DNA of 64,000 nucleotides. It comes from Prostheceraeus crozeri (taxonomy: Eukaryota > Platyhelminthes > Polycladida > Euryleptidae). The stretch covers positions 1 to 64,000 of the forward strand of contig CAJQUW010005329.1 of the NCBI GenBank assembly GCA_907163375.1. The letters run 5' to 3'. Numbering within the stretch: the first letter of the stretch is position 1; every line of letters begins with the position of its first letter. The position numbers were made by a program, and so were the translations under genes. This document shows, one piece after another, positions 7,247 through 60,320 of this stretch. The notes beneath the pieces were generated by a model. It saw only the letters and a list, made by a program, of their open reading frames with translations, made no database searches and had not been told where the DNA came from.

Positions 7247-8869
7247 ATGGTGGAAACTCTTCCGTCAAGTATCTCAAATGAAATAGCAAGGACTTCAGCA
7301 CATGGTATCCCGCGCATATTCTCCGCGAAGACTCATCTTCAGCGTCTAGTTTGGCTGTTATTATTTCTAGCTTCATCAATTGGATTTACTTTGCATTTCA
7401 AGAAATTGTTTGATCATTTCTCCGAAATTCCCGTGAACAGAAAAGTAACCATGCGTGGGACTGCATTTGAATTTCCTGATGTCTTTATATGCAATCCGAT
7501 GCCATTTTCGATATCGTTACTGCTGAGCAGTAATGAAATCGATGTTTATAAAATGTCTTTGAGGTATGGATATTTTGGCCACCGCCTGTATGCGGCCATG
7601 CAGAGCGATAATGTTTTAAGAAACTTACAATATGATGGTATCACGCTGACAAACCAAATAATATTTTCTTCCTTAAATTATAATGAATCGTACCAAAAAT
7701 TCATGAATACCATTGGTCAAACAGTGATGCGAGTGGCATGGAATAAAAACATAATAACTCGACGAAGCTCCTTTCGTTCAGTGCCAAGCACAGAATATTT
7801 AAGTTGCATCCAATTCATGAATACATCGCTCTTGAAAACACCAACAGACAAAATAACAATGCACTTGTTTACTGACGCATATCAGAAGGACAGACCTTTT
7901 GGACATTTGTATACGATGACATATACTGGATTGGGTGATCCAGACAAAGCGTCAGCAATGATATTGTACTTGACAGAAAAAGGAACGTTTCCCAGTATTG
8001 ACGATGTCAGTATCTTGTTGTCCTCCGGAATGACAACTGATATATCAGTCAGTATGACCAAGATGAAAATATTAAATACTCGGCGTCATGGGTGCCATGA
8101 AAAAGCGAGAACAATCGAAGTGGTGGATAAGTTCAACTTCATCGGTGAAGGAGATGGAATCATTAAGCTAAAAGAACGTTATTATTCATGTGTCGATTAC
8201 AAATGGACTTTTGCGTATCATGAAAAGTGTTCATGTATTCCATTGAATCGATACATTCCGCTGGCATTGCAAAATGAAACAGTGTACTGCTTAAATGCAA
8301 CAGTTTTCATCACAGTTGATCAGTTGATGAAAAACAGTCAGTGCGTTGTCATGTTGAATGTGAACAAAACTCTTCGAGACATGATAGAAAGTGCATGCCT
8401 AGACCCATGTTACTATGATGAATATTCAAGCACTTGGTCAAATGCATTATGGCCGTCTGCAACTCTGTTGAAAACCTCTATTGAAGAGCTTATCAATGAG
8501 TCGATATCACTGCGAAAATCTCAAAACATAACTGTTGCAGGTTGGGATATTCTGAAACCAAAAACTCCTTCGCTTTTTCCTGAAATAATCAAGGAGAGTC
8601 TGGTTAAAGTAACTCTAGGTGTGGAGTCGTCAGAATCAATTGTAATCGAGGAAAATTTGGCATATCCGATTTTTAACTTTTTCTCTGAGATCGGTGGCAT
8701 ATTGGGCTTGTACCTTGGAGTGAGTTTGCTAACACTTTGTGAACTTTTTGACCTTTTCTATTCGTGCATTAGGGGAGTTATATTCCAAGGCAGTGTGAAA
8801 CAATTTGAAAAGAAAGTCAGTGATATTGACATGACATCAAACAAAACTAGTGTAATAAGTTTGAAGTAG
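7247..8869 (+). CDS. DEG/ENaC-family (ASIC/FaNaC-like) cation channel subunit, intronless
   Basis: A single uninterrupted frame of 540 aa. The first ATG is at 7247; the frame opens 45 bp earlier only at a TTG, after an in-frame TAG at 7193. Family hallmarks appear in order: the N-terminal His-Gly gating motif (residues 19-20), TM1 at about 33-50, the post-TM1 motif FPDVFIC (76-82), a large Cys-containing extracellular domain including HEKCSCIP and ACLDPCYYDEYSS segments, and TM2 with the GVS (G-x-S) selectivity filter at about 491-493 inside LGLYLGVSLLTLCELFD. Members form trimeric amiloride-sensitive sodium-selective channels at the plasma membrane, gated by acid, peptides or mechanical force; the stimulus cannot be told from sequence. 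Length matches the family. Absence of introns suggests retroposition or intron loss. Both membrane ends and all motifs are intact, so a functional gene is likely. Confidence 0.92.
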   Translation: MVETLPSSISNEIARTSAHGIPRIFSAKTHLQRLVWLLLFLASSIGFTLHFKKLFDHFSEIPVNRKVTMRGTAFEFPDVFICNPMPFSISLLLSSNEIDVYKMSLRYGYFGHRLYAAMQSDNVLRNLQYDGITLTNQIIFSSLNYNESYQKFMNTIGQTVMRVAWNKNIITRRSSFRSVPSTEYLSCIQFMNTSLLKTPTDKITMHLFTDAYQKDRPFGHLYTMTYTGLGDPDKASAMILYLTEKGTFPSIDDVSILLSSGMTTDISVSMTKMKILNTRRHGCHEKARTIEVVDKFNFIGEGDGIIKLKERYYSCVDYKWTFAYHEKCSCIPLNRYIPLALQNETVYCLNATVFITVDQLMKNSQCVVMLNVNKTLRDMIESACLDPCYYDEYSSTWSNALWPSATLLKTSIEELINESISLRKSQNITVAGWDILKPKTPSLFPEIIKESLVKVTLGVESSESIVIEENLAYPIFNFFSEIGGILGLYLGVSLLTLCELFDLFYSCIRGVIFQGSVKQFEKKVSDIDMTSNKTSVISLK

Positions 8870-12268: not shown

Positions 12269-24528
<12,260 letters not shown>

Positions 24529-26150: not shown

Positions 26151-27805
26151 CAGATTGTTTCATAAAAAATGGATCACCCTTAAACATCGCCTTAACTTCA
26201 ACTTTGTCTAACTCCACCAAACTTGAACGAATTTCTCTGAAATTTGGAAGATATGTCAGTTGTACTTACTAATATCATTGTTCGAAATTTCAAGCATGAA
26301 TATTGAGTTGTTTTCCTGTTGTAGATAAAAAAGTAGTAGATAATTTGATCTTCATTTATCAATGTTACACAAAATCATACCTCACTCTTATAAAATTACA
26401 TTTGTTTCCTTTGTTATGTAATATGTTGTTCTACAAGCCAAAAGCTATCAAGCAAAACAAAAATAAAGAAAATCGGTCAATCAGAGCCAGTATAGCACCA
26501 TTATTTATCAACAATAATGTAACTGCTACATGTGATAAACTGGACTTCATGTTCCATAGCTTCCTGACTTCGTTGCGGTGGTGTTGACAGCACTGCTGAT
26601 TGCTTTCAGCTAGAAATCTATCTCTTACCGGTTGAAAACAATACAAAGCACAAATGAACAATAACGAGATCGCATTCACAAAAGGCAAAGTGTCAGCCTT
26701 GCTAGAACTAGGGTTTTCTTTGCGAGCTACAAGCAAGCGACTAAATGTCCCTTACACAAATGTGCATCGATGGCATAATGATGATTTTCGACTCTGTCGT
26801 AAAGAGGGCTCTGGCTGTCCACGCAAAACATCCAAACGTAGAGACCGCCTATTTTGAGATTTGTTAAAGTTGATCCAAGTCTCTCATTAACTGAGATGGC
26901 TGCACTAGACTCGTCTATTTCTAAGTCCACTATTCGTAGAAGACTTATTGAGTCGAATTTCAAGAGCTGTAAGAGGCCCTCTCAGATCGAATTATCAGAT
27001 CAGCATACAAAAAGATGTCTCAGATGGGCAATGAGTCATTGTCACTGGCGAAATCAATGGGATCGGGTTGTCTGGTCTGATGAGGCATCAGTCCTTCTGA
27101 AGGATAGTGATGGTCGATTGAGATTATGGATAAAATCTGATCAGGAAATTCCGAGACATTTACATCGTCCCCGGGTACAAGGTGGTGCGACTCTACTGAT
27201 TTGGGCTGGCATTTGGACTAATGGCCGCTCTGAACTTCACATACAGCAAGGAACCATGAATTCTGAACGCTATGTGAATGTTTTACGAATGAACATTGGC
27301 CAAATGACAGATCAACTTGGTGATCCATCGACTTGGTTATTTATGGATGATAATGCTACGTGTCACAGGAGTAGTAGAGTTAACTTATGCAAGTCTCAAT
27401 TAGGGCTTAGGACATTATCTTGGCCAGCTCGTTCTCCTGATCTGAATCCCATAGACAATGTATGGAGTATTCTAAAACGTGACGTTCGTCGTTCACTGCT
27501 ACCTACAGATGGCGTATCACAACTTACGTCTCTGTTAAAAAGAGAGTGGAGAAAGTTAGATCAGTCAAAAATCAACGATATCATCGAATCAATGCCTAGA
27601 CGAATTGGTAATGTCATTGACAATAAGGGTAGGGCCACAAAATATTAGCTTCTTAAGAACCGTTACTGTATCATAGCTTATCAGATTATATAAGGACATT
27701 TAAATATATTAGGGACATGAAATAACATGAAAAATGCTTTCTGTATCATACTTATGTTTTATTTAGTCAAATTTTAGGATGATCCACTTTTTATGAAACG
27801 GACTG
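26151..27805 (+). mobile_element. Nearly intact Tc1/mariner element (1655 bp)
   Basis: Left end CAGATTGTTTCATAAAAAAT; the right end as reverse complement is CAGTCCGTTTCATAAAAAGT, both followed by GGATCA. TA flanks at 26149-26150 and 27806-27807. An unusually long 5' untranslated region of about 500 bp precedes the transposase. A 304-bp deletion derivative at 36944-37247 and an old copy at 31503-32660 belong to the same family. Confidence 0.9.
26654..27648 (+). pseudogene. Tc1-like transposase with DD34D triad, one frameshift
   Basis: The N-terminal part (from ATG 26654) has helix-turn-helix features FTKGKVSALLELGFSLRATS and an RKTSKRRD linker. It runs into a stop at about 26856, and the protein continues in another frame from 26854 to 27648; a single-base deletion near 26850 explains this. 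The catalytic block keeps WSDEASVLL (first Asp), MDDNATCH (second Asp) and, 34 residues later, SPDLNPIDNVW, where Tc1 proteins usually have Glu and this one has Asp. The rest of the frame is open to the stop, so the element was active recently. Confidence 0.88.
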
Positions 27806-37249: not shown

Positions 37250-39803
37250 AAATAGAATTCCAACATTGTAGGAGTAAGATAATTTTTATGACGCAATTTT
37301 TGCGAACCGTTCATTGAAAATTATTATTCAAATTATTATTGAAAGCGGCTGACTTTGCTGTTCAACATTATTGAAAATTGGCATTGATAAATGGTTTTAA
37401 GTACTTTGAATAGCCGCTACAATTCATGAAGTAAATTTATAAATTTTTGTTGGCTTTCCGATTTGTAAGACACAACTTTTATTTCCGTACAATAAGACAA
37501 AACTATTTGTAAGTACATCAATAAGTTTAGGTAATAAGTATGTTCATTGCTGCATTCACGGCTGTTTTTGCTCGAGGATTCTAATTGTAGCTTACGTTTG
37601 GTTGTTTGTAATGAGTGCTATGAAGTTTTCACAGTTGGCTTGACGGCAGTGAGGGCTCGATGTTGACTAAGTTCTAATCCATAGACAATTATTTAGCTAT
37701 GCATCCAGCTTTAATCCGTACACATCTCAAAAAGAGTTTCCGGAATCGCATAGAAAAAATGAATTTTGTAAGAATCATGTGCTCACTAGCCTATCTATCG
37801 TAAAATTATTCCATATCTTCAATGAGTTATAATGCGCATTGTGGCTCAATCTTTTGCATGAGCTTATAAAATTCTGTCTATTATCAAAGTCCGAATAAGT
37901 GTCTAATTACCTGATAAAGGATCAATCAGGATAGAAATTGATGAAAATAAGCATTGCTGCGCTTCATCGGGAACTCTTGCTTATCCGGAGTATCGGTAAA
38001 CCTACCGCATGATACATACAGTAGAAATCGAATGATTTCTAGCGGTCTAAGTTGAACAGCTGCCAATCTTACTTAGTAGGTTACAGAGACGCCGGCATAA
38101 GTCCGGCCGGTTTTGACTACACAGGCCGCAAAAACGAGGTCTGTTCCAACCCTGTTACACGCAAACTGAGAGGGTAGCAGTGGTGATGTAATTGCTACAT
38201 CTTTCAATCGTAAATGAAAAAGCTTGTGATTTAAGCACTGCCTCTGATCCTTGTCGTGTTAATGCAGCTTGTCGATGTTTTTTGATAAAAACGTCAAATA
38301 ATTAATCAGCATATATTTTCATGAATTTTCAAGGAAGTACATTGCAAACAAGACCTCTATTGAATGAGGGTTAAAATACATGTTTCACTTGTCGAGAATT
38401 ATGTTTCTAACATTCTCATAAATACATGGCTTTCGGACTACTCTCTTGAAGTCAACAAATGCAATGAAAAACAAGATATAGCAGGTCATTCGCGCGATGT
38501 TTAACGATCTTCATCGGGAACTCTTTTCATGACAAAAAAACAAAAAGTCAAACTTTGTTCACTTGTGCACAAATTGCAAGCTTTAATGACAGATAACTGA
38601 ATTCCTCATCACTTCAATTGTGCCACTTGCTGCGTAAGCCGACATTTAAGTTGCTGCGTGTAACTGCACACAACGACTTCTTGATGATAATTAGCCAGGA
38701 GCGGATACTTCCTTAATACGCACGTTCAGATATTCTAAGACAATAATTGATGAATTGACCGGCTGATAAACACGTGCATGTAGGTAATTATTCAAAAATG
38801 TCTGCACCGAGTTATTTTCGTAAGTCTACCACCCATCATAAAATATCAAGCATTATTTTTGTTGCATACACCATCGTAGCGCGAAGTGACCAGTCATGTA
38901 TCATTATTGTTCTACAAATTGATACGTGGATAAACAATTAATTAGCTTAACAAATATTTATAGAAAATTTGAGTAACAAGAAAACGAGAGATAGTTTTGA
39001 CTCAGTTCTATTTCTCTTAGTTGGAGACTGACGTAGAAGTAGTCTCAAAATCGCATTCAAAAGTTTCTTTTGCTTTGATTTCATCTGTGTAATGTGTTAA
39101 TATGCCAGTGTTGTAGTCTGATGATCAAGATCCAAGTGTTTAATTTGTAAAATTACATCGGTAATTTGTAATGTTTGTTAAAATTTTGGCTCAAGCGAGT
39201 AAGTACTATGATAGCCGTCACCACAGATCAACCATGCTTCCCTTGTGCTTGCTTTGATCAAAATTTGAGATAGGTTGACATCCTTCATTGAAACAATTTT
39301 TTAATTAGGCAACTTAAGTGCGCAGTAATTTGATCCAGGGATCGCTTAGGCACATTGGAAAATTGCAATGAAAACTCTTTCTCAGTTGTTGGACCTAAAT
39401 AGAAATTGCTGATAGTCAACTCAAAGCAGCTTTGGTCCTAAGAAAAATTATAATTTTTCCAGAAATGCAAAGTTAAGACTTACGGGAAAATCCTGTACTA
39501 AACAAATCTACAAAATATGGTAATTAGCTATATTTGTGAATAAATGCTCTTTGTTTTCACTTGTCTTCCAAGTTGTCAGATTTTGTTAATTAAACGACAA
39601 GGTTGAGATGTTGAAGCTAATAACGATTTGAATTGGATATCCGATTATTTTCCAAGAAATTTACGATTATTTTCACAATGCAACCGAAGTAGCATCAACA
39701 TTCATTGACAAAATTTCACATATGTATAGGAATATGCATACGTGTATCTTTGGTTTCCTTTGTTAACCATCAAGGGACGGCAGTTTCAATGCACAGTGTC
39801 GCA
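37250..39803. other. Intergenic region downstream of the TGF-beta ligand gene
   Basis: AT-rich, no coding or repeat structure recognised. It should include the ligand's 3' UTR at its right side. Confidence 0.4.
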
Positions 39804-40001
39804 TCACCTGCATCCGCACTTTTTCACCACCATGTCTGGAAATTCCCTCATCGCAACATTGCCTTTAGCATCATAATACAAAATAGTCTGACTTCCGAAT
39901 TCCACAGGAACACACCCAAGTGGAGGCACAGATGAGCCGGGTAAGCTTATCAAATGTGCCACTCCTTGCAGAAATGCGTGGTTTGATATACTGTCTGGAG
40001 C
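39804..40001 (-). CDS. TGF-beta ligand exon 3 (stop codon)
   Basis: 198 nt after a TTTATTTCCAG acceptor. It encodes APDSISNHAFLQGVAHLI, then LPGSSVPPLGCVPVEFG, ILYYDAKGNVAMREFPDM and VVKKCGCR, then TGA. This is the C-terminal half of the cystine knot, found 6.75 kb beyond exon 2 by its NHA, CVP and CGCR motifs and matching phase. Confidence 0.92.
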   Translation of the reverse strand, partial: APDSISNHAFLQGVAHLISLPGSSVPPLGCVPVEFGSQTILYYDAKGNVAMREFPDMVVKKCGCR

Positions 40002-43000
40002 CTGGAAATAAATTATTGAAATTTACTTTAACATAACTTGAATGAATGGGGTTAAAACTGAATGAATTCCGAAACAGGTGAACCGCAAATTGCAGAACAT
40101 GGGTTAACACAACATCTTTAGAACAAGGATATGTGAGATACTGAGAACTACACGTGCATCTTTCGTGCATTGAATATTCAGCGTCCAAATCAGAAGATGA
40201 AAATAATTACTGGGCTGTGTATATTTTTGCATTCCCTGCATATTTGTTAGTACAGATACATTGGGACTATTCACCAATTAAAATTCAGCAGGAAGAAAAT
40301 TCGGTTTAATATTCTGCCGACAGAGGCAGAAAAATGAGCCGAGCAAGTGAACGCATAGCGACGAGCCGAAACCAATTGAGTTTTTCTGCTATTATGTTGT
40401 TATCCTATAACTCCGCTGAATATTCTGCCGACGGAATATTTAATTGGTCTAATTTTGTGACGGCAGAATTTTTAGTTCTTGAACAAGGCCATTGACTACA
40501 TGCATTAAAGCAGCATGTCTGACGACTCTCTCTCACACACCGCCACTGAGATGACAGTGGAATAATGACTCAAAGAAATTTATGGATCAATTGATTGTTT
40601 CAATTTTGGAACATGTTTTGAGATTTTTTTAATTCTCAGACGTTCAACTTGCTTAGGCCTTTGCAAAATCGAATAGTTACCGAAGCTCCTCCATTTCGTG
40701 CCTTTCTCCTGTTAATGAAAACGTTGATTCCCATTCTAAGTTTGATTAGGTAATTTATTATGTGCGACACAGTTGTTCACTTATCGAGATTTTTTGTGAG
40801 GCAAGTATTCTCCACTATTAAATAAGCAAACAACATTATAGCGCAGGGCATAAACAGGCACTGAACAGTAAAGGTGAAAGTCACCCTTTTCCGGTCTCAA
40901 TAGGTCTGCTCCGCATCAAGGCTCGGTACCAAATCCCATCCTATTCATTGAAATAATGGATGCGATTTCTAAAGAGTGCAAAGACGGTGGTATCTGAGAT
41001 ATGCTTTACATCTACGACCTCGTGATATTTGGAAGCAGTCAAAAGGAAGTGGAGCAAAGGTTGGCTGTATGAGGTGCAGCCTTTGAGAACAAATGCCTCA
41101 GAATACTACGTTGCTCGAAGACGGAGTGCTTATCGTCCGACCCAGGGAGAGCAAAGTTGGAAACTTGCTTCAGACACGTTGTTGAATGTAACGGCGTATG
41201 CAACAAGTTTCACCTTCCTTTCCATAGCTTGGCTTGAATGAAGCACTAGATGACTTCAACCACTCACACAAATCATTCGTCCGATGATATGAATTTGAAT
41301 CTTTTGAACTGAGAGCATCAATGTGGTGCATAGATATGTTATACTGCAGAAGACGAAACCATAGAAATTGAATCAGTCAACTTAAGATAGAAATCTGATT
41401 AACAATTCAAAGTGATTTTTGACAAACTTTAAATAACGGTTTTGACTCCCCCTGTACATGTCAATGGGAGTGAATGCCTCGATAGTGAACAACTGAGCAG
41501 GGTGGAGAAGGAGGACTGGACCTGGGATTTGCGGGACAGGGGTCTTCAAGATAATCCAGGTGAGCGCAGGATATCATAACATGATTCATTTGTGAGGACC
41601 AGGGTAACCAGATGTTGATTCAAAAGGAAGGCTCGATGTTCAAGTGATGTTCAATTTCTAATATATGAGCTTCCATTTTTAAATATTCTTGGAGTAGCGT
41701 TTACCGAAAATTTGAAGAGGAAAAGACATATCAACCATATTTCAAAGAAATTCTCTTCTGGATTGTATGTCTCACGGCAACTGCGCGGCTATCTACCGTC
41801 TGAACACTTGAAAATTGTTTACCAGGGCTGTCAGAAGTCTTCTGGAGTATGGTGCTCCCCTCTCTTGTGAACTGCCAAGAGCATTAGTCAACCAGTTTGA
41901 GCAACTTCAAAGCAGAGCCCATTACATTCTTTGCAATCCTCACCATCGTGAATTTTCAAAACTTTTTGCCTCTTGAGTATCGCAGGAAAATGATTGGTTT
42001 TAAGTTGAAAGTGTCGAGCAACAGTGATCATCCCCTACATACTCTTCTTCCACCTAGAATGCCTTACACAAAGAAATTTCGTCTTCCTATGTCAAAGTCA
42101 GCACTTCGCAGCTCATGCTTTATGCTGACTATGGCCAAACTTTGCATCAATGACTTTGCATTCTAAAGTTTGTAGTGCCTCGTTGTACAGTGTACGTTTT
42201 TTGTCAAGTGTCATTCTTTTAACCTTGTTCTATTTCATCATGTTCGTGGCCCCACGATTTCCAGTAATGGGACAATTACGCGTTCTTGAAATAAACGTTC
42301 ATTATTTTTATTTTCATCTGATTACCTTACCGTGTTCCTCACAAATTAATCATGTCGATGTCACACTATTTCTTCAAACAATATCATGACAGCCGTACTT
42401 TTCAACACAGTACGGTACTACTGAAAGTCCCATTAGAATTTATTAAGTAAGGTGTAGTTGCAAATGAAATGTGATGCTGGATTGAAATACAATAACGCGA
42501 AAGATTGCTCTGCTGTTCGAGGTAAACTGACGCAATTAATTGTGTCACTTCACACATCAGTCATTTCATCAATTCAGCTCAACTGCGTTTTGAATAATGT
42601 CATTTGTATAATGTTATTAATTAAAGGGTTTCAATTTTCCGCCTTCTTTGAAGTTGTTTTGATCATATCTCTACTCCCACGTTTAGAGGTTAAATACCAT
42701 TCATTGTGTGGACATGTATAACGCCCTGATTTATCTGTCCATCACTGCCCATCCACCTCAGATGGGAAAAGCGGCGCCCGCTGGTCGTTTATATCACGTT
42801 GGTGATCTATTGGTTATTTCCGCTTTGATGTTATCTATCAACATATTTGATCTTATCGGTTGTCATTGTCTTTGTTACCTGTCCCCTTAAATTCATGGTC
42901 GTCATTCAACCATGGCACAAGGAAACGGTCATTAGAACGTTATGAAAGTCTTCCAAGCGCAAATCCGAAGTAAAATCTACACAGTTGCTGGTATGAAGGA

Positions 43001-46000
43001 ATCAAAATCGAATCGAAAGCAAATTTTCACTGGTTTTCACGGCTACTTTGTGTAAATGAGTGAAAAGGCCTCACTATTAGACGGTTGTATGCACGCAGCA
43101 AATTTTCTTGTAAATGAGGACCGGATTTTTACTGCCCATCACACAGATGGACAGCACTCAGTCCACAAAAGTAGAGAAAATTCAGTCCGAGTTGATTTCC
43201 GGCACGAGAATATTTTTTGATGATGCGACAGTTTAATAGCCACGCCATAATTTGAGCTCACAAAACATGAGGGCAGAAGGGAACATTCTTCATTAAACAA
43301 ACAGATACTTCATTGCACTACTGAAAGTGCTTATCGGCTGCCTGATCGTAGATATTTGTCAAAATTCCTCCCAAAATAGTTCATTCATATTTAGTGGAAC
43401 CTAATCATGATATTTCAATATGTGTCCAATTTTCCTCGAATATTTGAAACATTAATTGATTTTCTCAGTGGGCAATGAACATTTTAAAAGGAGACTTAAA
43501 CATATTTTTAATCTGGAAATTTTTTCCAGAAATCAATGTTTTCAACATTTGCAGTCTGACTGTGAAATGCAGTGTGCTTTCAATCCAATTTGGCTTTTTG
43601 ATTGCGTTTTTCCTCATGAAAGAAGATCTATATAATGAAGCTTTATGAATCCATGAAATTATAAAGGAATAAGAAATATGAAAATGCAGATCATTTTAAT
43701 GCATTTAGCAGACTTGTAAGTTAGTGTTAGGCCCACAATTTTGAAATAGCCATGTTTTATGTCGCCGGTGTCTGTGTCATTTTTAGAGCCTGGTGTCGAT
43801 GTCTGCGCTGTCCAGAAAAACTCACATCACGGCATCCTTGATTTCGCTTTATGAATCCTTTATTATATTGAATCTTTCAAATGCGTCGAGTCCGTGGGGA
43901 TTGGTGAGACAGGAGAGAAAAGTCGGAGATGTTTACAATCTCTTAGAACTCAAATGCAGCCATCGAAATGGTTACTTCTACTGCTATAACGACTAATAAT
44001 TGCCAACATGAAAGGAACGAAGAGACTTGATTGTCGAAATAATTCGTATTTGAAGATGAGAGGGAAATAACCGTTTGACCCTACCATTCTCCTCCTTACA
44101 ATGGGATGGGAATCTTCGACATTGTTGTTGCATTGTCGATTCGACAACTCTCTATGTCTCATTTTATCTTCTTGTTTCTTCATGTAAAAGCAATCATTTT
44201 GGAAGGAGGATGGAAAACGAGAAGTGTACGGTCTCTTCAAATGTCTTAGAATGGTGTTGTATGAGATGCCAACTCAAATTGATTGATCGATGTCAGCTTT
44301 GTAAAATCAGTCATACGTAAATTTTCATATCCTCTTTTTTTCAATGGTCCCCTAGATACTTCCTATCACTGGAATAGGAGTCTGATATTCCATCTACATT
44401 TCATTTGGTTATCATGTGAATTACTCTCTAGTCCCTGCCAACATTTCATATTTCCATAGATCGGCAATGATTTCACCTAATGCCGCATTACAGTTGCCTT
44501 ATAAATGTAATCACTTTGAATAAACAGGAGATGGAATGATATACGAGCACGAATGTGGTCTTCTTCTTCGTCGACACGCCCATTTCGTCGACAATCTCAT
44601 CAATTTTGTATCAACATGATTAAGATGCTATGGTGATATGAGAAGATTGACGGCTCACTCAGAACACATCGCCGATTTCGTATTCCGTTTTTATAGATGT
44701 CGTCCTTAGTTGAATCAAAAATCATTTTAAGATATTAGATATCTTTATATACTAAGGATATCTCTCTCACATTGATATTTCAAATTTCTGTGCCGTCGAT
44801 TACTTCAATTGAACAGAATATTGGCGAGATAGCTGTTGACGAGATAGTCCAACGAAATTGACTTCCCTCAAGGGTGTACCTGGACACACTATACAGTAAG
44901 CTGAATGATTTGTGAAATCCAAACTCGAGTGATTTACTAATTTGCCTGCGTATAGGTATGGGCTTGCTGTTAAGCAATTTCAAAGTTGTTAAGTTTCTTG
45001 CTTGTGATACTAATTTCATTTAATTATTGATCCGCATTTTCATTCCTCTGTCCAAACCCGGGCAGCGGAGGCCGCTCATCTTGATAGGACTTTTTATTAT
45101 ACTCGGTTCCCGACTCCGTTAGTAGGCCTAGTAAGTAGCATAAAGGTAGGAAATAATGCATTAAGCGCGAATATCAATTCACTTTTAACCAGGTGCATCA
45201 AATTAGTCTTGCGCAGTGAATATGACTGCTATAGTGTGTAATTGTGCATCATCAGCCGCTGTTATTGATAAGGGCCTACGTACATACACAATTGAAGATC
45301 CAAGGAAATGTTTTTTTAAGATCGGAACTACCCTTCCTATAAGCACGAACGTGTAACTAAGAAATTGTCTGCCTTCATGTTCTTGTGCAAGTATAGGTGC
45401 GCTCATCAGATGGACGATTTGACTTTATGCAAATATCGATTATTCCTGGCGGCGTACTGTACCGGTACTCATCCATATTGCGCATGTTATCATTATTGAG
45501 GTTTCTTTAATAAATGATATGAGAAGCACATTCGATATTTTGGAAAGCTGAGTATATTAGATAAAAGGTCGATCCAGGTTGTACTGCTTATTAGATATTT
45601 CTATTTGCGCTTGCCGAATCAAGCAGAGTACATTAGAATTATTAAATGAACTATCAAGCAATACAACTCTTTGGATTGCGGTAAAAGTCTCATTGAACCA
45701 GAGATAATTTGTTATTGAACAAGTAACTACATCCATCAAATGCTGATTGGAAGATGTGGAGATATCTTGAACATGAGAATACAGTATAAGAATAATCACA
45801 ATCGTCTAATTCTTTGACGATCAATGATTTTCTGTGGAGATATTGAACAGCTGTAGTCCTGTCCAGCTACAGAAGTGAAATGATTGAAATTTTCAACAAG
45901 AAGTATGAAATAAGGACATGATGGTCCAGTTTCACGATTTTGTGTATCGTTAAGCAAGCCCTGAAGACGTGAGAAGACCACCTGCCTTTATTAACTACCA

Positions 46001-49000
46001 GCGATTGTCAGCAGGTGTTTATTGAATAAAATCATCTGCAGCTTAAATGTGCCTCATCTTTTCTATGATTCTCAGGATTCTTCTCCACTCTCCCATTCAA
46101 CTTTTGAGAGAGAGAAAATTACAGAAAGGACATTTCCAAAACTACATTGACTACCCTCCGTTTACTACAGTCAGTTTGATGGGAAATAGTTATTTAGGTT
46201 TTTGATGTATTATACACAATTTGAGTGTTGCAATGATCAGAATATATAAACGCAGTGTTTAGCAGTACTTTCAATATTTCAAGAAATTGCAATCTAACTA
46301 TGCGATCCAGAATGCAACAAAAGTTGAGGACAGGACGTCAGAATTATTAGTGAGAATGTATGATGATTCATGAAAATGAAGTTTATCGAGGCAATGTTAG
46401 TTGGATTCGGGTCCTAGCGCATTTCAGGACTCCGACACCACATATTTGATTCAAATATCTAAGTCCGATTAACATCAGCTTATTGTCTGCATGAAATGCA
46501 AGCTTTGGAGGATTGCGGCATATCTCAACGCATAAGCATCATCCAACTAAAGTCGCTTCATTTTCTCCGTTTTACTTTATAATCCCCTTTATTACTTGTT
46601 GCGATATCAAGGGATTGTTTATCTGTGTAGGTCTAATTATCTAATAAATAAATAAACTCTAGCCGAGAGCGGTTAGCACAGCACTGAGATTACAATTTAC
46701 ATGCAAGTAATAACCAAGTAATTATGATAATCAAATATAATGCATACGAACCTGCCAAAGAAGGTGCTGACATGTGCCTGCACATGCATTGATGGGGAAT
46801 GACTGAGGCGAAATGATCCACTCATGCCATCCAATATCTCGGAAGTCGAGTGTAATTGGTATGAGACCACACTTCCGTTGAGAATAATCAACGCTATGAT
46901 TTCTCTCAGTTTGAGGAAGGGGTTTAAACAGTTTTGGTTTCGTTCTTCCTCTTCCACGTGCACGATTTCTTCGAGATTTGCGTCGTTTGCGACCCTTTCT
47001 TCGACGGCGTCTTTTATGTCTTCGATGCCACGGAAGATGAATCAGTTTATGATTCGGCCCTACACTGTCGATGGACCGCTTGTGACGGTTTAACAGCAGT
47101 TTCTTTTCTAATGCTTTTCGTTCGCGGTTTCTCTCCTTGCGAAGTTTTAAATGGGACGATTCACGAGTAATCCTGTCGATGCTAAGATGTCGAGTGTCAT
47201 TGGTAAAAAGAACGATGAATGGTTTACCTTTACCATCAGGTCCCACAAATCGCTTCAGTGAAATCTCTTGTATCTTGCCATTTGCCTTCGTAGCTTCAAA
47301 GGTAATGGCCAAGCGTAGATCTGCATATTGTCGTGATAATGGTAGAATTGTATTTTGTATAAAAGTTGTGACATCTATGACATCCCAACCAGTCTTATAT
47401 TGAGCTAAATTGAAGGATCGAAGAGTCTGAAGAACATCATTTGGTTTGATTAAATGAAATGAAATTTGCGCACGTCTACGACGATTTCGTGTGACCAACC
47501 GTTTGACGAATATGTGCAGATCAGCGCGAACAAGACTTTCCCGCTTATCTAAAATGGGGAAATTGAATGCAAAAGCAAAGCTGAGCTCGTACACACCTGA
47601 AAAAGAGAAAACAATGAATTTTAAATATTTTTCATGAAGAAGCAAGTTCAACGAATAGTATGTAGTTTATTTGTATAGAGAGTAGTATGTAGAGTGAATT
47701 AACGACATTCAGTTAGCAAGTAAAAGTGAAACCCGAAAATAGTACAAATTGCTTTACATCGACAACGCAAAGATCCTTCGGAAATATTTATATCAAAGAT
47801 CTATATCGTAAACTTCTGGTTCAAGTCTATTGCCAGTATCTGTATTGCTTTCTTTGCGATCAAGATTCCATGATTTGCACATAGTTTTCCAATCTTTGTG
47901 ATCGTGATAGGTCTCTAAGGCTGTCAAACTTTTCTTCTTGGCCATTCAGTCAGACCATGTTCAGACGATTCTATGAAACCATAACATTTGGCATTTAATG
48001 TTATAACTGTTGTTATGGTTAGCCTTCTTTGACCGTGACAAGAATCTTCCGGTACACTGACTTTTTCTTGACTTTATATTTAATGTTTTGGGCTTATATC
48101 ATTTACCAGTTGACTTGGATTTATGATTTGTTATGTCATCACATTTCAATTTCAATTTCAAATACGTTTTATTTACTTTTCAAAAATAGAGATGCCAATA
48201 ACACAATTGAAAAGCGTCAAATCATGTGCTCCATCGCCAGCCGCGCACATTCTTGCGAGCGGATAGGCCTTGCTTTACCTTGCATGTAATGTTCGGCAGT
48301 TTAAAGTGCCAACTGTGATCCAGCGGAGATTTGATTTAGCGCTCAATAAGTTACATGCTTTTATACTACATGAATCAGTAAATATTACAGAATCCGCTGT
48401 CTGGCTTGAACTGAGTAGCAATTTCTTTCACATTGATATGTTGAATGCTAATTGGTGAAGTCACTTTCCTGTTGATTATAGACGTCAGTTAGGAAAGTAA
48501 TTCTTCGAAGGAGTCAACATGGGAGGAGATCTTGGTGGCAAGTGCTTCAAGATGTGTTGGTCTCTTGAAACAGATGAATTAGTAAGCTCATAGAGCATAA
48601 ATACAAACACTGTAAAGATACACATGCATGTCTCTATGCATTATCAGAAATTATTGAATTACTTTAGGAAAATCATAATCATCTAGAGAAAAGTTCCCCT
48701 TTTGCCGGCTCTGTAACAGTCTGCCCACGAATTCGATGCGAAACATTAGTAGCAAAAGCATCTAGCGCAATTTGAGAAGGTTGCAGGATTCCCCGTAGGC
48801 ATGTGTCACGAAGCTTTAAGACTATTCAGGAATGATGTTGACACTCTGATTGGTTAAGTGACCATATGAAGAGTCATAACACATAAATAATAAATATCTA
48901 ATTTAATGTCAAGATATAATGAGTCTGCAAAATTGCACAATTTGGTACCTTTTAAGAATTTGTTTTCACATATGTGATTCAATTCAACAGCTCATTTAGC

Positions 49001-52000
49001 AAATTTCCCATAGGGTAGCAGAAAATCAATTTTTGCTTGAGACGTTAATCTTAGAGAGCATTGAATCCAATGAATTATAATATTTCGCATGAGTTAGATA
49101 TCTTTGATGAACATTAAAACGTCTTTTACAAGGCTTTGAATAACTTAACAGTCACAAAAGTGCTATCGAGGACTATCATTCATTATTATCTGAATTATTA
49201 CCATTTATCCGATTATTCATACAATTGAAAAATAACCGTCAAGGGTTTAATAAATTCTTTAAGCTGGAAATGCCAGCAGAAATTATAATTTCCTAATTAG
49301 CTCATAGGTCGCTCAGTTTCTGTAATAGGACACTCTCTCCAAAAAGCGGTAATGTCTGAGTCAATAAAATAATTTCAATTTCCCATGAAAAATCAATAAT
49401 TGCAATGAAAGGATCACAAGCTATAGTTGTGATGAGAATTCAAGTGCTGTTCAATGATTAGAAAGGAGAATATCTTCGGATACAAATTTATTGGATGGTA
49501 AGTTACACGACGTTTCGCTTGGCCAAGCGAAACGTCGTGTAACTTACCATCCAATAAATTTGTATCCGAAGAAGATATTCTCCTTTCTAATCTGATATTA
49601 CCGGATACGTGGACTACCTATGATTCTGTTCAATGATGGATGGATTATGGTGGCCTTCAAAAGAAATCCGCTCATTCTCAAACATGAGCATGAGAAATCA
49701 TTTGATAAAGGATTAACTAATTTGTGCTTAGAAGGAGCGGTCAGACCTGTTACATCATCGTGTTAAATAATTCATATCTCCTTAATGTCTTCACTTATCC
49801 ACTAATCTGTGTAACGTCTATTCTGCATCAATGAGATAATCCAGTTGGGATTTTATTCCTATGAGCCACTGTAAAATCAACAAACGAAGAAAAGGTGGGA
49901 GCTGTCGATTAATCATTAAACAACCACAAGCACTAATTGCACTCCATTCACAAATCTCACAGGATCAGCGTAAATTCTGCAGCTTCAGAAAGGAATGGCT
50001 GCCGGATTCCACCGGTACAAATAAAATAAAATATCAAAATAGGAAAGAATGTAGATAAGAATGAAAGAATTGCCTGATATCACGGCGCCATCAGCGGAAA
50101 CATGATAACATCATAATTTAATGACATGTATTCTCATCTTCTGCGTCATTTATTGACACACAGCAAGACATTGTCATTTGAAACAAGTCACGTTGAAAAC
50201 ATCATTTTCAGGCGTTTAATCAATATTCATGAATCCTAATAGAATTGATAGGATCGTTCAATTTGAGCGTCTTTGATCATGCAATTGCTGATGAATATTT
50301 GTCGAAATGAAATATTGAATATAAAATATTTATATTAGATGATCAGGAAGAATTGACGGAAAACTATAAAGATGAAATTTCAATGAAAACGATAAATTTG
50401 TAAACAACTCACACATTTTGATTTTCGAATTTTCACTGTAGTCTGCGGTGACAACGGTGTAATGTGTGCTTGTGTATGACTGGAAGTCATAATCTTATGT
50501 CCTTAGCTACATACTAATGACTACGGATGCTTTGTTGGCTACGGGACATCTGAACATATCATAGGGCAAGTAACTACAGAAAACCGACTTTTCGCTTCGA
50601 ATTATACTAGAATGGGCAATAGCGGTTGATGGTCACTTCCGCTGCAAGGTCAGGCGTGAATCTAAGTCAATGCTGCTAGATTTTAAGAAAAATCAAATCA
50701 CTAAAGCCTAGAATAGCTGAAATTCTTGCCGTGAAGTTCGGCAGCCACAGCGAGTTTCTGCAGGGAAAGAGGCCGAAAACGACACTTTCACAGAATGATG
50801 TACACCATATGCCAACTACGAATCTGCGCGTCTGCCGAGTTCTACTGAGTACCTCTTCTTGTCAGACAGGATTAAAGAAAGCACATGTTAGTCCAATGGG
50901 ACTCAGATTGCAACTTTTGGTTTAAATAACATTTTCTATTGCTTCTCTGATCAACTAAAAATTACTAAGTATAGAGCCATAATTTTCCACATGATATGTC
51001 TTCAGGTCATTCCCTATCATGTGAATGTTATATTATTATGTTTCTCATGGGAGATGTATGCGAGAATGTGGTTAAATGTGGACAGAATTGAACAAAGTGT
51101 TGGTGTTTGCCGACATCAAGAGGGTTTTCCAAATCTGAATGTGCTTACCTTCATAGATAAATAAGTGTTTATGAGCATGATAAAAAAATGACTTGAAGAT
51201 ATTCCACGTCAAATATTGTGACTCTAGAGTTTATACTTTTCAAATAAAAAGAGAAAACACAGAAAATGTTATTTTAACCAACAACTGCAATCTGTGTCTC
51301 ATTGGATTAACATTCTTGTGTGTTTTCATTGATGTGTTTTTCATTGATCCTGTCTGACAAGAAGAGGAGCTCACTAGAACTCGGCAGACGCGCAGATTCA
51401 TAGTAGGCATAGGGTGTACATCATTATGTGAAAGTGTCGTTTTCGGCCTCGTTCCCTGCAGAAGCTCACTCTGGCTGCCGGAATAGATTTTATTACAAGC
51501 ATCAAGATGATCAAGATCATAACCTTGAATATTTTGTTAAGTATAAGTGGAAGCCGTCTTCGTTTAGGCACTGTTGTCGCGGCAACGCAAATGATGAACT
51601 ACTTTAGAAAACATGAATTTGCCTATTAACAATCCTTGCGGATTGCTATTTTTTAAAGTCACACTGTATTCCGTACATAATTTCAATCATTATTTAAATT
51701 GCTACTTGATTAATCATTAAACTTTTCTGAGTTTAATCAAACTATAAGTGATGCCAAGTATGATGTGTAAAATGACATATGACCAGCCTAGTTCATGAAT
51801 ATGACACCCAATGAGATTTTAAATTTATCAGTTGAAGTCATCACAACGTGCGATCATCTTGCATTTAGACATCTACGACTGTAGAGAACGAAGTAGAAAT
51901 TTTGCATCAATTTATCAAATGAAGAGTCGCTTAGCATTGATCAAATGATATTAACCCATGAAAAGAACTTCATATTTTTTTATCCCGGAGCAAAATGCGC

Positions 52001-54466
52001 TGCTTCACTTGAACAAGTGCTGAATTGAAATCCTAAGCGTTCACAGTACGTGAAAATCGAGGGAAGAAAATATTTCAGTAGAACAGGAATTTTATGAAAT
52101 TGAGCGACATTTTATGGCAATATGTTGAACTTCTTTGTGAAAGTAATATGCTATTAATATGCATCCATTGTCAGCCTTAATACCCCGTCACATGTTTATA
52201 ATAGATAACTGACGTCATATTTGAAAATGTCTGTTTAATGATGATAGCAAAATTTTTTATCTTTTGGCAATTAATTTCAACCCATGTTCGGTGGCCATCG
52301 TCAGACATAAAAGTATGTTTCAGACTAGTTGCACAAGCAGTGACATGCATTTTATTTCCTATCTTAACTTTGGGCAGGAACATAGATCTTAGATGTTGCT
52401 ATTTGCAATTTATCTCGAGACTTTCCATGACTTGACATATGGATACCGATGTGCGTAAAGGCCCATGTGAAAGGTGCCATGCCTTCTTCATTATTGTGTC
52501 GTGCGACGCTAACGAGCTTTTAGTCCGACGTAGGGAAAACACCGAACCTTCAGTGACTTTTTTAGATACTACCAAAATGTCATGAACAAAAAATTCGCTG
52601 GTTGTCAGAAGTAAAGAACAAAACATCAGATAGAGCAATAACATTAATAATTCATAGGCGGATGGAATTACGCAAGCGTTCAAAAATACTGATTTTGAAT
52701 TTCTAAGGAGAATGACAACTATTAGTCAATGACACCAACTCCCTTGATTCCACGACCGTACTCGCCTGACCCAGGTATTGAACCGAATTCCGTGAAGACG
52801 AGCACGCATCTTCTTCGCTAAGCCACGCCAGCGGTACAAAAGTGAAGACAGAAGTCATCTCTGAGACTGACGTCTTTTATCAACTTCATCATTTTCTTTA
52901 TGTATTTTAATACATTGCGACAAACCTTGATAGTGAACATTGATTTTAATTAATTAACATTTCAGTTAGTAAGACATACCATACCGTTTTAATCTGTTGC
53001 ATGATTAAGCCGAAGTTCTTTCTGCTTTATCATTATAGGTTCTGCAATACTATTTGTAATTTCATAATTAGTATTTCCTTTGCCTTTTATGCGAAGCTGA
53101 TTAATTATGCACTGGATACAATGGTTGCAATTATTTGTATGGTCCTTTACTGCTGTGTCAGTTTTTTACGTGTGTTCCATGGATCCACTGCTGAAGTCTT
53201 CGTTTTGATTTGCCAATGTACATGTAGGTTTGGCTACATCACCCAAACCAAAGTAGACACAAACAAGAGAATTCAAATACATGTGCAACAGAATTAAATG
53301 CGACTTTAGCATCAGACCCACATTTCCACCACTTTTTGTAACTTTCACGATGACTTAAGTTGTTGCGAGGTTGTCCCAATACGCGGTGTTGCTGTCTACA
53401 GTGTCATTCCTATAATTGCTATATTTTTCTTCTTTATGAAGTTCCTTGCGCTATCTTCTGTCTTCTATATTGATCTTTGCTTCAGATAACAATCAAATTT
53501 AATTCTAAAAGTCAAGCGCTCTGACAACTTTTAAAATTCCATGTCCCTGTGCAATCAGCCTATGATTTATTTGCTATGTTCTGTACATGTAAATGAAAAC
53601 ATATTTCCGGGCCCGCATCTGTTCTAAAACATCAGACGAGGTTCCAAACTCGATTCGAAGGCTACGGCCAGCCTAAAAGTCCGGCTGTCAATTAGCATCG
53701 AAGCACCGGTAAAGAATTATTTACATGTAAAAGGGGAATAAACATAATAATCTTCACTAATGCATGGCATGAAATTTGAATCATTGATGTTAAGTGATAA
53801 GAGACGCATGATAGTGGTTTTATAGCACAGTACAGACAAATAATCAATCGAGATTGCAATCGAGAAAATTCTAGAGCCTTTAATCAATTATATACCTTTA
53901 CAAATAATAACCATTAAATACATCCTAATTTATAATGTCATTTGCATGGCACACTGATTAAGTGCATGGCCGCGTGATCTTTGGTAGTGTGGTCGAGCTT
54001 CGTGTCTCATTAGAGGTCGGTAGGAAGGATATCCGGACTTAACCTGTCACAACACTCCGGCTAAATCTGATTATACGGCAACACAGTCCAAGCCCCTATG
54101 ATGGATAGCTATTAGTCAGTTACAATTTAATCAATGATGTTAATTAAATGCAGCTTAATCTTGATATCATTGAAGTAAAATCGAACACTTACCGAATTCC
54201 GCTTGAACCCCATGCACAGTATTGGTTTTAACACCACGACGATTCCGCATCAACTGCAAAATATACTTCGGAGCTTCTTCTAACTGTGACATACTGAAGG
54301 GATCGTCGTTTAGTTCCGGAAACTGGTGCGACAACTCTTTATCAACAGTTTTATAATAACTTTGCAAAGATTTGTATGCTTGTTGAGCAGATGCCGTTGG
54401 ATATGGGAATGTGTGAGCCACATGAAGAAGACAAAGGAAAATACACTGTAATGGGTCGAAAAACAT
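39804..54466 (-). CDS. TGF-beta superfamily ligand (BMP/Nodal/GDF-like) lacking the inter-chain cysteine
   Basis: Join (minus): 54466-54193, 47596-46752, 40001-39804; 1317 nt, 438 aa, phases consistent. The ATG follows an in-frame TAG. Signal peptide about 1-26; the prodomain contains the typical GWDVIDVT motif (161-168); furin-type site RHKR at 262-265; an extremely basic stretch at 283-309; cystine-knot domain from Cys334. Knot cysteines are 334, 363, 367, 403, 435 and 437; motifs DFRDIGWHEWIISPQSF, SNHAFLQ and DMVVKKCGCR. Most ligands have CC before VP; here it is Gly402-Cys403, so the disulfide-linking cysteine is missing, as in GDF9, BMP15 and Lefty. The predicted product is a secreted, furin-processed dimer acting on serine/threonine kinase receptors. 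Subfamily is uncertain: DIGWxEWIISPxSF recalls BMP3/GDF10, while the basic spacer and GC-for-CC change do not. Confidence 0.9.
40002..41639. other. TGF-beta ligand intron 2, right-hand part
   Basis: No feature recognised apart from short random frames. Confidence 0.4.
41640..42166 (+). pseudogene. LINE reverse-transcriptase C-terminal relic
   Basis: Translations in shifting frames: ILGVAFTENLKRKRHINHIS, KKFSSGLYVSRQLRGYLPSE, HLKIVYQGCQ, then DHPLHTLLPP and KKFRLPMSKSALRSSCF up to the stop. The order (YLGV.. H..., RLR, L..VY, HPLH.LLP.) is that of the RT thumb and C-terminal region of non-LTR retrotransposons. It is dead and inserted antisense to the ligand gene in its intron 2. Confidence 0.78.
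42167..45556. other. TGF-beta ligand intron 2, middle part
   Basis: AT-rich sequence with no recognisable gene. A short GGAGTC-like fragment (ATAGGACT, GACTCCG) near 45085-45120 may be debris of the 4219-5000 hAT family, but too little remains to be sure. Confidence 0.4.
45720..45990 (-). repeat. Segment duplicated at 60765-61030, copy A
   Basis: Shares with 60765-61030 the ordered blocks CATCCATCAAATxCTGA, TCTTTGACxATCAATGATTT, TGGTC and CGTT-AGCAA-CC-TGAAGA. Diverged but colinear. The minus strand is open as QHLMDVVTCSITN. It may be an unknown dispersed repeat or an old duplicated exon. Confidence 0.6.
46752..47596 (-). CDS. TGF-beta ligand exon 2
   Basis: 845 nt, acceptor CTCTTTTTCAG, donor CAG|GTTCGT. 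It encodes the bulk of the prodomain, the RHKR processing site, the basic spacer and the first three knot cysteines (ending NACAGTCQHLLWQ). It ends in phase 0. Confidence 0.92.
49456..49592. repeat. Near-perfect 137-bp hairpin element
   Basis: The left arm starts GATTAGAAAGGAGAATATC and the whole sequence folds back on itself around TTTCGCTTGGCCAAGCGAAA. The only visible difference is a 3-base GAA insertion in the right arm. Almost no loop. Lies in the ligand's intron 1. Confidence 0.88.
50739..51480. mobile_element. Non-autonomous element with TIRs of about 200 bp
   Basis: The left end CGGCAGCCACAGCGAGTTTC matches the reverse-complemented right end CGGCAGCCAGAGTGAGCTTC. Similarity continues about 200 bp per arm at roughly 90% identity (GAGGCCGAAAACGACACTTT, TCTGCGCGTCTGCCGAGTTC). 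The core of about 300 bp has no coding signal. No target duplication is evident, so the superfamily is open. Confidence 0.75.
52725..52838 (-). repeat. tRNA-derived SINE, copy 1
   Basis: On the minus strand an A-box-like TGGCTTAGCGAAG (from 52825) is followed about 30 bp later by a B-box GGTTCAATACC (52784-52774), then a tail ATCAAGGGAGTTGGTGTC. It shares the tail and both boxes with 58155-58267. The tRNA part does not fold as an obvious functional tRNA. Confidence 0.75.
54193..54466 (-). CDS. TGF-beta ligand exon 1
   Basis: 274 nt from ATG to a GTAAGT donor. It encodes a hydrophobic signal sequence (MFFDPLQCIFLCLLHVAHTF) and the start of the prodomain, including APKYILQLMRNRRG, resembling the VPxYMLxLYxxxxG motif of BMP-type prodomains. 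It ends one base into a Gly codon. Confidence 0.88.
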
Positions 54467-57079
54467 ATTCTGATTGCCCTAGTGCGGCAATCTGAGAGCG
54501 ATGGTTGCGGGCGATCGTTAGGGGCGCAATAAGACACTTACAGGTCGTGAATAATTCAACATCATCAAATTTATGTTAAGCCGATTTTGCTTTTGAATAT
54601 ATGTCTCGACAACAAGCAATCAAGTATTGTTGGAGTGTTATTATTATTTCATTATGCGATTCAACAGCGATCGTGCGCTTGCGAGGGGCACCTGCTGCTT
54701 CTACAGATTCCAGCCAATGACAAAACGTGACATTGAAGCTCGTCAGTAATTAGTAAAGATGTGCGATCAGCGAGTTCGAATGACCCAGCCGCTTGGATTC
54801 GTTATAATCGGGGATTCTCTCTTAGATTAGGGCCAAAGTAACACCTACATTTATTCTAATTGCAAGGTAGAAGTATTCTGAAAATCAGCGGTGACTTTGA
54901 AATAGCCCACCCGAGGCGTGGGCCTATTCCTAAATGAGTTTACAGCGGGTAATGACACCTACAGGCTAAGTTAGATGCGATATTATCTTCCTTGAACCCG
55001 TAATGTAAAGAATCAAACTCTTCTATCATTTTTTTGTTCAGAGAGAGGTTCAGATAACGTTGTTTTGTTTATTGGCTGTTGACATTCTTTGAAGAGAGTG
55101 TTATTATTGCCATGATAAATAAGGAGTTGCGGCATATAGAGATGAACAATATTATTTTAAATAAGCAATATCTGAAAAACGAGCAATTTGGGCATGAAGT
55201 GAAGCTGAAATTTCATCTACAGTCCGTCCAAAAAAGTGTATTTAAAAGAAATAGCAAAACCAACCTTAAGATTACTTATACTGTGGTTAATAATATTAGT
55301 CCTAAAAAAGAAGGATTGGCTTTCGCGTCTGTCAATGGGTAGATACTTTACTACATATAGAAGGAGCACCAAACATAAATAATAAATATACACGGGAGAT
55401 AGTGCATTGAACAGTCCAGAAAGGCTAATACATCGAAGAAGATGAGGCTTATCAGCAAGTTGACCAGCTAGGTCGCGTTTCAGGTCCTTTATCATCTTGT
55501 ACGCTGAAAGCCACAGCTGCTGGACCCCAAACACAGTGACACAATCGAAAACAAGCTTAACAGAAGCCAAACATAAAAAACTATTCTGTAGAATGCAGAC
55601 CAAACTTGAATAAAATAAAAATAGGCCATGTCTATTCACAAATTTCTCCATACACCTTATCAGTTTTCAAGCTTTGCATCCACGCTTCATGAAAACTTCA
55701 AATGCAGTCCTGACTTTAACAATAGAGTACTGCAGATGTTAACAAATTCCTAGATACCTCAGAGTTTGACAAGCAAATACATTAGTAGCCATATGAAAAA
55801 GGAAGAAGACTTTCCGAAAAAGAATGTAAAGAAAATTGTTCAACTTTATGAAAAACGAAGGTGTGCAAAACATCACGACATCAAACGTTATACATGATAT
55901 CGAGGTATTCGACGGAGGTGCTACTGGTCACATTTCTCTCTGCTTTCAAATCATTAAACTGATTGTCGTTAAGTCATATAAAAAGGTTAACAGATTAATT
56001 TATATATGCTCGTAGGTATGGTACTTTGATGTAGATGTTGGCCCTCCAGATTATTTACTTATGCGTATTGACAATATATTAGTCGGTTGGATAACATTTT
56101 TTATTTTTTTCTTTCAGTTAAAATTATTTCATTTAGTTTCACGTCAGAAGTTTTCAAACAGTTTTTGACTTTTTTTCTGATTACTATTTTCATGAAAATG
56201 ATGCCAATAATGTTTCAATTACAAGAGCTCACGGCTTCAATTAAAGACATTCATGCATGTTTTCTCTCAGTTGTTACCTGAAAGTTGAAAGTGGTTGTGA
56301 AAGTTGTTGCTAGCCAAAGTAATTATGCGCGTCTATGATGATGACTCTATGTAGCTTACTTGTGACACTTAGTACATAATCAACCAAACGAACTTAAGCA
56401 AAAATAAATATATGCATCTACCGGTATCATATAGAATTATATAATAGATTTTTAGACATGAATTTAAAACTAAAATTCTTCAAAATTTAAATTAATAGAA
56501 CATATTCGGAAATAGTAATAATGAGCAGTTAATGACATGATAAAGAAATTCACTGTAAAAGTATTAGAGGGCAAAATCAAGTCATTCTAATGAATCTGTG
56601 ACAAAATCTCTACGAAATATGCTTAAAAATGCAAACACTATCCAATCATGCTTGAGCATCTATGTGGCCGCTATTTGAAAATGGTTGGATAAAGCTCTCA
56701 TATTTTGCAGCCTCTAGATATAGCAAGTGCTGCAGAAAAAACATCAACGAAACTACAAAGAAACACATGGAAAAAAATCAGAAGAATGATTGTGGTCATG
56801 CAGAATCAGAAAATGGCCTTACAATTCTCACGTACTAAGTACAAGTCATGCGCACAATTGAAGTAATCGACCACGCGGAAGTGTGCCGCTGTCTGATTCT
56901 TCAGACATAAAGCCTACAAACTAATAATAATTGAATCCAATTATCTGAGGATATGACGTGATTATATAATATCCAGGCAGATAGCAAATTCTAATGTGAT
57001 ATAAAGACGCCGGTATCTGCCTCATAGTGCTGCGACATATATGCGACAAGGTCCGAAGACATAAATATCCGAAGATATA

Positions 57080-59399: not shown

Positions 59400-60320
59400 T
59401 TCAGTCGGTCCAGTAAATGCAAGTTTCCATCAAATTTCCTCAGTTTGAATTATTCTTGCCTGGCAGATCGAAAGCAGAGTGTTCGCATTGATTCCGTTGA
59501 GAGCCATCTTGTGTCCATGACCTCTGGTGTTTCACAAGGGTCAGTCTTTGGCTCAATGCTTTTACTGTAACCACCGGCAACCTTAAACCAGTGAACTCGA
59601 ATGTGATAAAATACATTGACGACATCAATATCTCCACTCCTATTTTCAAACATTCAAGACACATTCTAGAAGAGCTTCTACAATTGCAATGGGCAACTGC
59701 AATGAAGCTATCAATAAACATGAACAAATCGAGATGTCTTGTTCTCAATAAATCAGCTGCATGTTATCCTATCTTTGCTCTTGGCATTGATGTTGTTCAG
59801 GACCATAAAAATCTAGGAATTGTTTGGAGCAGCAGCGACTTGAAGTTGCAGAATCATTTTGAATATGCAGCGAAACTCGAAAGTGCTGGTACGAAGACTA
59901 TATAAGCTCAATCTTTGACTTCTGAAGTGTTCATTAAGCAAAAATGACCTCATAGTTATGCATCGTTCTTTGTGCATTCACTACTTGAGTATCGTTCTCT
60001 CGTTTTTGTTGGAATGCCACAATATTTGTGTAGAATTTGAAACGCTGCAGCGTCGTGGCCATTGATTAATGGTGATTTTGATCATGAATGTAAACTGTCT
60101 ACCCGAATCGCCTCAAAGGCGTCTCAAAACCTTAACGTAGCTACTCAAACAGTGCATATCTGAGAACACATTCTGTATTCAATCATTACCAATTAGTGGA
60201 AGATCTGAGGAACAAATATAGAACAATTTACAGCAGAACATCGATGGAACTCATTCATCGTTTATATGCCTCTGTATCTCAAACATCAGCATATCAATTT
60301 GAACTGCATAAGGACTAGAT
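59400..60320 (+). pseudogene. LINE reverse-transcriptase relic (palm and thumb)
   Basis: Frames read VESHLVSMTSGVSQGSVFGS (GVPQGSxLGP-type motif), then VIKYIDDINI (YIDD at the catalytic YxDD position), LSINMNKSRCLVLN, DHKNLGIVWSSSDLKLQNHF and later LQRRGH. This is the ordered palm-to-thumb series of non-LTR RTs. Stops and frameshifts near 59570, 59905 and beyond disable it. Confidence 0.82.

Follow-up and report, generated by a model that had tools for sequence, protein, structure and literature searches.

A BMP-branch-like ligand gene of the flatworm Prostheceraeus crozeri with glycine at the interchain cysteine position

Positions 1 to 64,000 of contig CAJQUW010005329.1 from the polyclad flatworm Prostheceraeus crozeri (assembly GCA_907163375.1) contain a gene for a ligand of the TGF-beta superfamily, in which glycine stands at the position of the interchain cysteine. 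This whole stretch of 64,000 nucleotides is referred to as the window. Sequence and phylogenetic analyses suggest that the product is probably an intact-looking ligand of the BMP branch, perhaps of the BMP3/GDF10 kind, which forms a non-covalent dimer. The gene consists of three minus-strand exons with GT-AG introns, which join in frame to encode 438 residues and a stop. The coding sequence of 1317 bases is open throughout, and has no frameshift. The exons and the elements within them are as follows.

54466..54193, minus strand: exon 1 (274 bases), with the ATG, the apparent signal peptide, and the first part of the prodomain; its end is in phase 1
47596..46752, minus strand: exon 2 (845 bases), with the remaining prodomain, the RHKR site, the basic spacer, and the knot half carrying Cys334, Cys363, and Cys367
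47087..47076, minus strand: RHKR, residues 262-265, the assumed main cleavage site, presumptively chosen among six motifs
47021..46932, minus strand: basic tract, residues 284-313, with Lys or Arg at 21 of the 30 residues
40001..39804, minus strand: exon 3 (198 bases), with the second knot half (Gly402, Cys403, Cys435, and Cys437), then the stop
39917..39915, minus strand: Gly402, codon GGG at the interchain cysteine position, in the context CCT CCA CTT GGG TGT GTT CCT

The precursor has two cysteines in its apparent signal peptide (residues 8 and 12) and six in the knot (residues 334, 363, 367, 403, 435, and 437). The latter six agree in count and numbering with an initial annotation made from the letters alone. 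An alignment with 29 TGF-beta family members (the reference rows) was used for comparison. The column before Cys403 holds Cys in 25 of the 29 rows; it holds Val in GDF3, Ser in GDF9 and BMP15, a gap in LEFTY2, and Gly in the window ligand. Glycine in place of the usual cysteine of the CC pair was therefore confirmed. The initial annotation also described this cysteine as lost; its absence is borne out, and its loss is suggested by the family pattern. The knot cysteines are spaced at 29, 4, 36, 32, and 2 residues. The distance of 36 from the third to the next cysteine is long for a BMP, yet inside the range of the reference rows (37 in GDF1 and INHBA, both CC residues counted). The predicted secreted chain contains exactly six cysteines, the number used by the knot, and none was found in the prodomain or the spacer of the 438-residue translation. 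With these six only, an intermolecular bond would cost one knot disulfide. Because the interchain cysteine is absent and no replacement cysteine is present, the usual covalent homodimer is excluded by the sequence; the usual disulfide-linked dimer is impossible for the secreted chain as predicted.

The remaining fold appears intact, as the initial annotation had held. The Pfam TGF_beta profile (PF00019) matched the joined protein with 86.9 bits (1.8e-24) over positions 1-104 of 104, and the six knot cysteines are all present. The separate matches were 38 bits for exon 2 (cut-off 27) and 44.6 bits for exon 3. The spacing is that of a superfamily ligand: 29, 4 (CxGxC), a further Cys, and the final CxC. 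The precursor also seems to have the superfamily layout of signal peptide, prodomain, and basic cleavage site. Its N-terminus is hydrophobic at about residues 6 to 18 by hydropathy, which is taken as the apparent signal peptide. The Pfam propeptide profile (PF00688) matched residues 91-222 of the joined protein with 26.7 bits, barely over the cut-off of 25.8; the match for exon 2 alone (25.2 bits) was slightly under it. Six non-overlapping R-x-[KR]-R motifs were found, at residues 74, 128, 262, 284, 288, and 294. The spacer from RHKR265 to Cys334 has 68 residues, including 27 Lys/Arg and 3 Asp/Glu. Three further motifs lie inside it, and cleavage there could shorten the spacer to 36 residues, as counted from the most proximal motif. 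Such a basic spacer may bind matrix.

The gene model was assessed through its splice sites, which were scored over 39600..54700 (759 GT and 780 AG sites) with a crude matrix. The exon 1 donor (TCG/GTAAGT) ranks 5 of 759, the exon 2 acceptor 1 of 780, and the exon 3 acceptor 11 of 780; the exon 2 donor (CAG/GTTCGT) is weak, at 39 of 759. A locally stronger donor at 46700 lies past an in-frame stop (open reading frame end 46731). Exon 1 alone gave no Pfam match. It was accepted because it begins with a hydrophobic stretch, because its donor and phase fit, and because the residue numbers of the initial annotation were reproduced. That annotation had placed the ligand at 39804-47596, a range that spans exons 2 and 3; the gene extends on to exon 1 (54466..54193).

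The cysteine might also be concealed by an error in the gene model or the assembly, such that the true third exon is another one or some bases are wrong. The rank of the exon 2 donor and the G/T-rich low-complexity sequence at the contig start would fit such an error, but it is very improbable on the following results. Knot-half profiles were built from the 29 reference rows and compared, with filters off, with six-frame stretches of at least 20 residues within the window. With the second-half profile, exon 3 came out at 6.2e-16, and the runner-up was a plus-strand stretch at 0.26. With the first-half profile, exon 2 came out at 2.8e-13, and the runner-up at 0.92. These stretches of the window thus yielded no further third exon of the TGF-beta type, and alternative third exons in the window were rejected as only exon 3 is above threshold. 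The initial annotation had named an erroneous Gly codon as a further risk. A single-base substitution error is ruled out, since GGG needs two substitutions to become TGT or TGC. A single indel error is unlikely because the frame, which is open to the stop, would break. The 1317 coding bases are likewise open and free of frameshifts.

The subfamily placement was examined with structures, trees, and shared residues. Among 60 of the 65 distinct solved-structure sequences that matched, the best was BMP3 (2qcq, 81.4 bits), followed by BMP6 (74.3 bits). A maximum-likelihood tree including BMP3/GDF10, LEFTY2, and GDF9/BMP15 joined the window ligand with BMP3 and GDF10 (support 66/84). E350 and S357 are shared with BMP3 and GDF10, and with no other of 15 reference groups. 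GDF9/BMP15 were not grouped with the window ligand in the best tree; a tree constrained to unite them is 2.8 log units worse (p 0.28). When LEFTY2 and GDF15 were omitted, BMP3 was still nearest by path, and alternative placements were still not separated. The window ligand thus appears BMP-branch-like, possibly of the BMP3/GDF10 kind, and is not filed here as a member. In the published account, bmp3 is a single copy in the brachiopod Lingula, and two mollusc assemblies are without it (PMC13121700); the presence of bmp3 in a protostome would thus be nothing out of the ordinary. No published intron position within the mature domain of vertebrate BMP3/GDF10 was found in the literature searched. 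NCBIfam, a prokaryote library, gave no match for the window. Orthologue searches of two collections, which cover viruses and prokaryotes and thus have no bearing on animals, gave 14 and 61 pattern matches, none of which was confirmed (by tblastn for the 14).

The terminal branch of the window ligand is long (1.67, against a median of 0.22). This branch length might indicate a decaying copy of a normal ligand, under weak constraint and with the cysteine among its losses. There is very little chance of this, however, as the frame contains no stop and nothing is damaged among the six knot cysteines, the splice sites, the apparent signal peptide, and the cleavage motif.

The absence of the interchain cysteine is not new, and the gene joins a known minority of such ligands. 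It has a residue other than cysteine at the first CC position and keeps the other six, as in the class of ligands without this cysteine. According to the published descriptions, the interchain cysteine is absent in TIG-2 and TIG-3 of C. elegans (PMC11210861), and in a TGF-beta of the sponge Amphimedon, where six remain (PMC2000352). MlBmp3 and MlTgf4 of the ctenophore Mnemiopsis are described as missing the fourth cysteine and keeping six (PMC3169577). Lefty is without the cysteine of dimer formation (PMC4564238), and GDF3, GDF9, and BMP15 are also in print as lacking the interchain cysteine. The likeness to MlBmp3, MlTgf4, and the Amphimedon ligand is by published description only, and these animals are very distant; whether MlBmp3 is a genuine Bmp3 is questioned in the ctenophore study itself (PMC3169577). 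No spiralian ligand without the interchain cysteine was among the matches listed in the literature. No published account of this particular gene was found in a literature search that was not aimed at the host species. The consulted text of a paper on the TGF-beta ligands of nine nematodes does not mention the cysteines (PMC9733428).

Several likenesses to and differences from these ligands were identified. In TIG-2, as described, the interchain cysteine is absent, the other knot cysteines are kept, and the prodomain is cysteine-free, as in the window ligand. The spacing of TIG-2, a BMP subfamily member known here by description, is 29, 4, 33, 32, and 2, as computed from published residue numbers (48 and 81, giving 33), compared with 29, 4, 36, 32, and 2 here. 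However, Lys occupies the position in both TIG-2 and TIG-3, and TIG-3 has extra mature-domain cysteines and two in the prodomain, of which there are none here (PMC11210861). GDF9 and BMP15 share the six-cysteine knot without the interchain cysteine, and bond-free pairing has been reported for them (PMC6953019). They differ in Ser at the position (reference rows; PMC11210861), and their identity to the window ligand is 29% and 34%, respectively, in the reference rows. The reported spacer before the first cysteine is 2 residues in BMP15 (PMC7017013), compared with 68 or 36 here. BMP3 is similar in its long spacer, given as 80 residues; counted from RHKR265, the spacer of the window ligand has 68 residues, but it has 36 by the definition of the same paper, from the most proximal motif (PMC7017013). 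BMP3 and GDF10 keep the CC pair in the reference rows, whereas GC is present here. The LEFTY2 reference row has no wrist-helix segment and starts with an extra cysteine; neither is true of the window ligand.

In the proposed mode of action, each chain would fold with three knot disulfides (334-403, 363-435, and 367-437), by analogy with TIG-2, and convertases would cleave after RHKR265. In dimeric ligands, the wrist-helix region of one chain lies packed against the other chain. Two chains might pair non-covalently in this usual way, through the wrist helix that is kept here. The distance from the third to the next knot cysteine is 36 here, 33 in both GDF9 and BMP15, and 19 in LEFTY2 (reference rows). 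Since the wrist-helix region is kept here and absent in Lefty, a non-covalent dimer would be favoured over a monomer. The basic spacer might bind matrix polyanions and so keep the dimer close to where it is made, and the dimer would engage type I and type II receptors. Without the interchain bond, chain exchange with another ligand could be permitted. The initial annotation had suggested a possibly lineage-specific, non-covalent ligand; the exclusion of the usual covalent homodimer stands, and the non-covalent pairing itself may be inferred.

Published systems offer parallels for such pairing. BMP15 and GDF9 are without the same cysteine, and their heterodimers can reportedly form after secretion (PMC6953019). 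The TIG-2 homodimer was modelled by its authors with an interface predicted template modelling score (ipTM) of 0.875, and the TIG-2/TIG-3 heterodimer with 0.783; the TIG-3 homodimer was unsupported (PMC11210861). The heterodimer model, and a prodomain that is cysteine-free as in pro-TIG-2, would also suit an obligate or preferred heterodimer subunit, whose non-covalent partner would be a second ligand of this animal; such pairing has been proposed for TIG-2/TIG-3 and reported for GDF9/BMP15. This is a possible but clearly less probable explanation, as a single knot gene was found within the window, hence no partner there, and the native state of BMP15/GDF9 is itself disputed (PMC10725505).

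A monomeric or Lefty-like antagonist, which occupies one receptor type and assembles no signalling complex, is unlikely. Lefty is likewise described without the dimer cysteine (PMC4564238), one study saw no native secreted BMP15/GDF9 dimers (PMC10725505), and the grouping with LEFTY2 was not formally rejected (p 0.078). That grouping, however, is 5.5 log units worse, and the wrist-helix segment that is lost in LEFTY2 is present here as SNHAFLQGVAHL. Membership in Lefty was rejected on the distance from the third to the next knot cysteine (36 here, 19 in the LEFTY2 reference row).

Several results weigh against a BMP3/GDF10-like ligand that dimerises non-covalently. The weak exon 2 donor is one of them. 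None of the 10 other groupings tested in the tree was rejected at 0.05, the poorest being those with TGFB1-3 (p 0.078), LEFTY2 (p 0.078), and GDF8/11 (p 0.080). In the reference rows, the top identity is to GDF3 (39.6% over 101 columns), followed by BMP3 (38.8% over 103 columns). Over the 15 reference groups, the residues that the window ligand shares with one group and no more than one further group are 8 for GDF9/BMP15, 6 for TGFB1-3, and 5 for BMP3/GDF10; these counts are affected by unequal group sizes. With regard to dimerisation, one study reportedly saw no native dimers of BMP15 or GDF9 in secreted media; a band of dimer size appeared only when lysed red deer oocytes were cross-linked, and BMP15 was found in covalent multimers (PMC10725505). 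By analogy, the absence of the cysteine may mean that no stable dimer forms, with covalent multimers still possible.

Other features were observed in the window. Intron 1 of the ligand gene contains a perfect palindrome (49473-49572, arms of 50 bases, no spacer), which may reflect an error of assembly or be a small mobile element. The same intron also contains an inverted repeat (50739-50880 and 51339-51480) with 142-base arms that are 91% complementary. The contig start (1-2708) is G/T-rich and of low complexity, with a GC skew of 0.75 over the first 4 kb and no telomere unit by eye; it looks like a sequencing or assembly artefact. At 7196-8866 on the plus strand, 557 residues of a member of the amiloride-sensitive sodium channel family (PF00858, 157.8 bits) run without interruption. 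Its best solved relatives are FaNaC1 (59.1 bits), an FMRFamide-gated channel (47.5), and ASIC1 (46.6); FaNaC1 is presumably from an annelid and the FMRFamide-gated channel from a mollusc. TMEM144-type transporter matches at 14152-14517 and 19672-19989, both on the minus strand (98.8 and 48.8 bits), lie in the order that two exons of a single minus-strand gene would have. Two copies or remnants of a Tc1-like transposase are present at 12652-13813 and 26842-27645 on the plus strand, both with HTH_Tnp_Tc3_2; DDE_3 is present at the latter and under the cut-off at the former. RVT_1 gave a weak hit for a reverse transcriptase at 59501-59902 on the plus strand, where its 20.4 bits do not reach the cut-off of 29.6. 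Rfam at gathering scores and a tRNA scan of the window gave nothing.

The gene by itself opens no new question. If the protein is made and dimerises bond-free, it would be a further case on the short published list of GDF3, GDF9, BMP15, Lefty, TIG-2, TIG-3, one sponge ligand, and two ctenophore ligands. A more far-reaching proposal, which is unlikely, is that a protostome BMP3/GDF10-type ligand independently gave up covalent dimerisation, with a basic matrix-binding spacer and chains that could swap partners extracellularly while tethered near the source. If true, a subfamily that otherwise keeps the bond, the doubtful ctenophore MlBmp3 aside, would hold a counterpart of GDF9/BMP15. A case of bond-free dimerisation would bear on how often the interchain bond is dispensable, and on whether its loss accompanies heterodimer formation.

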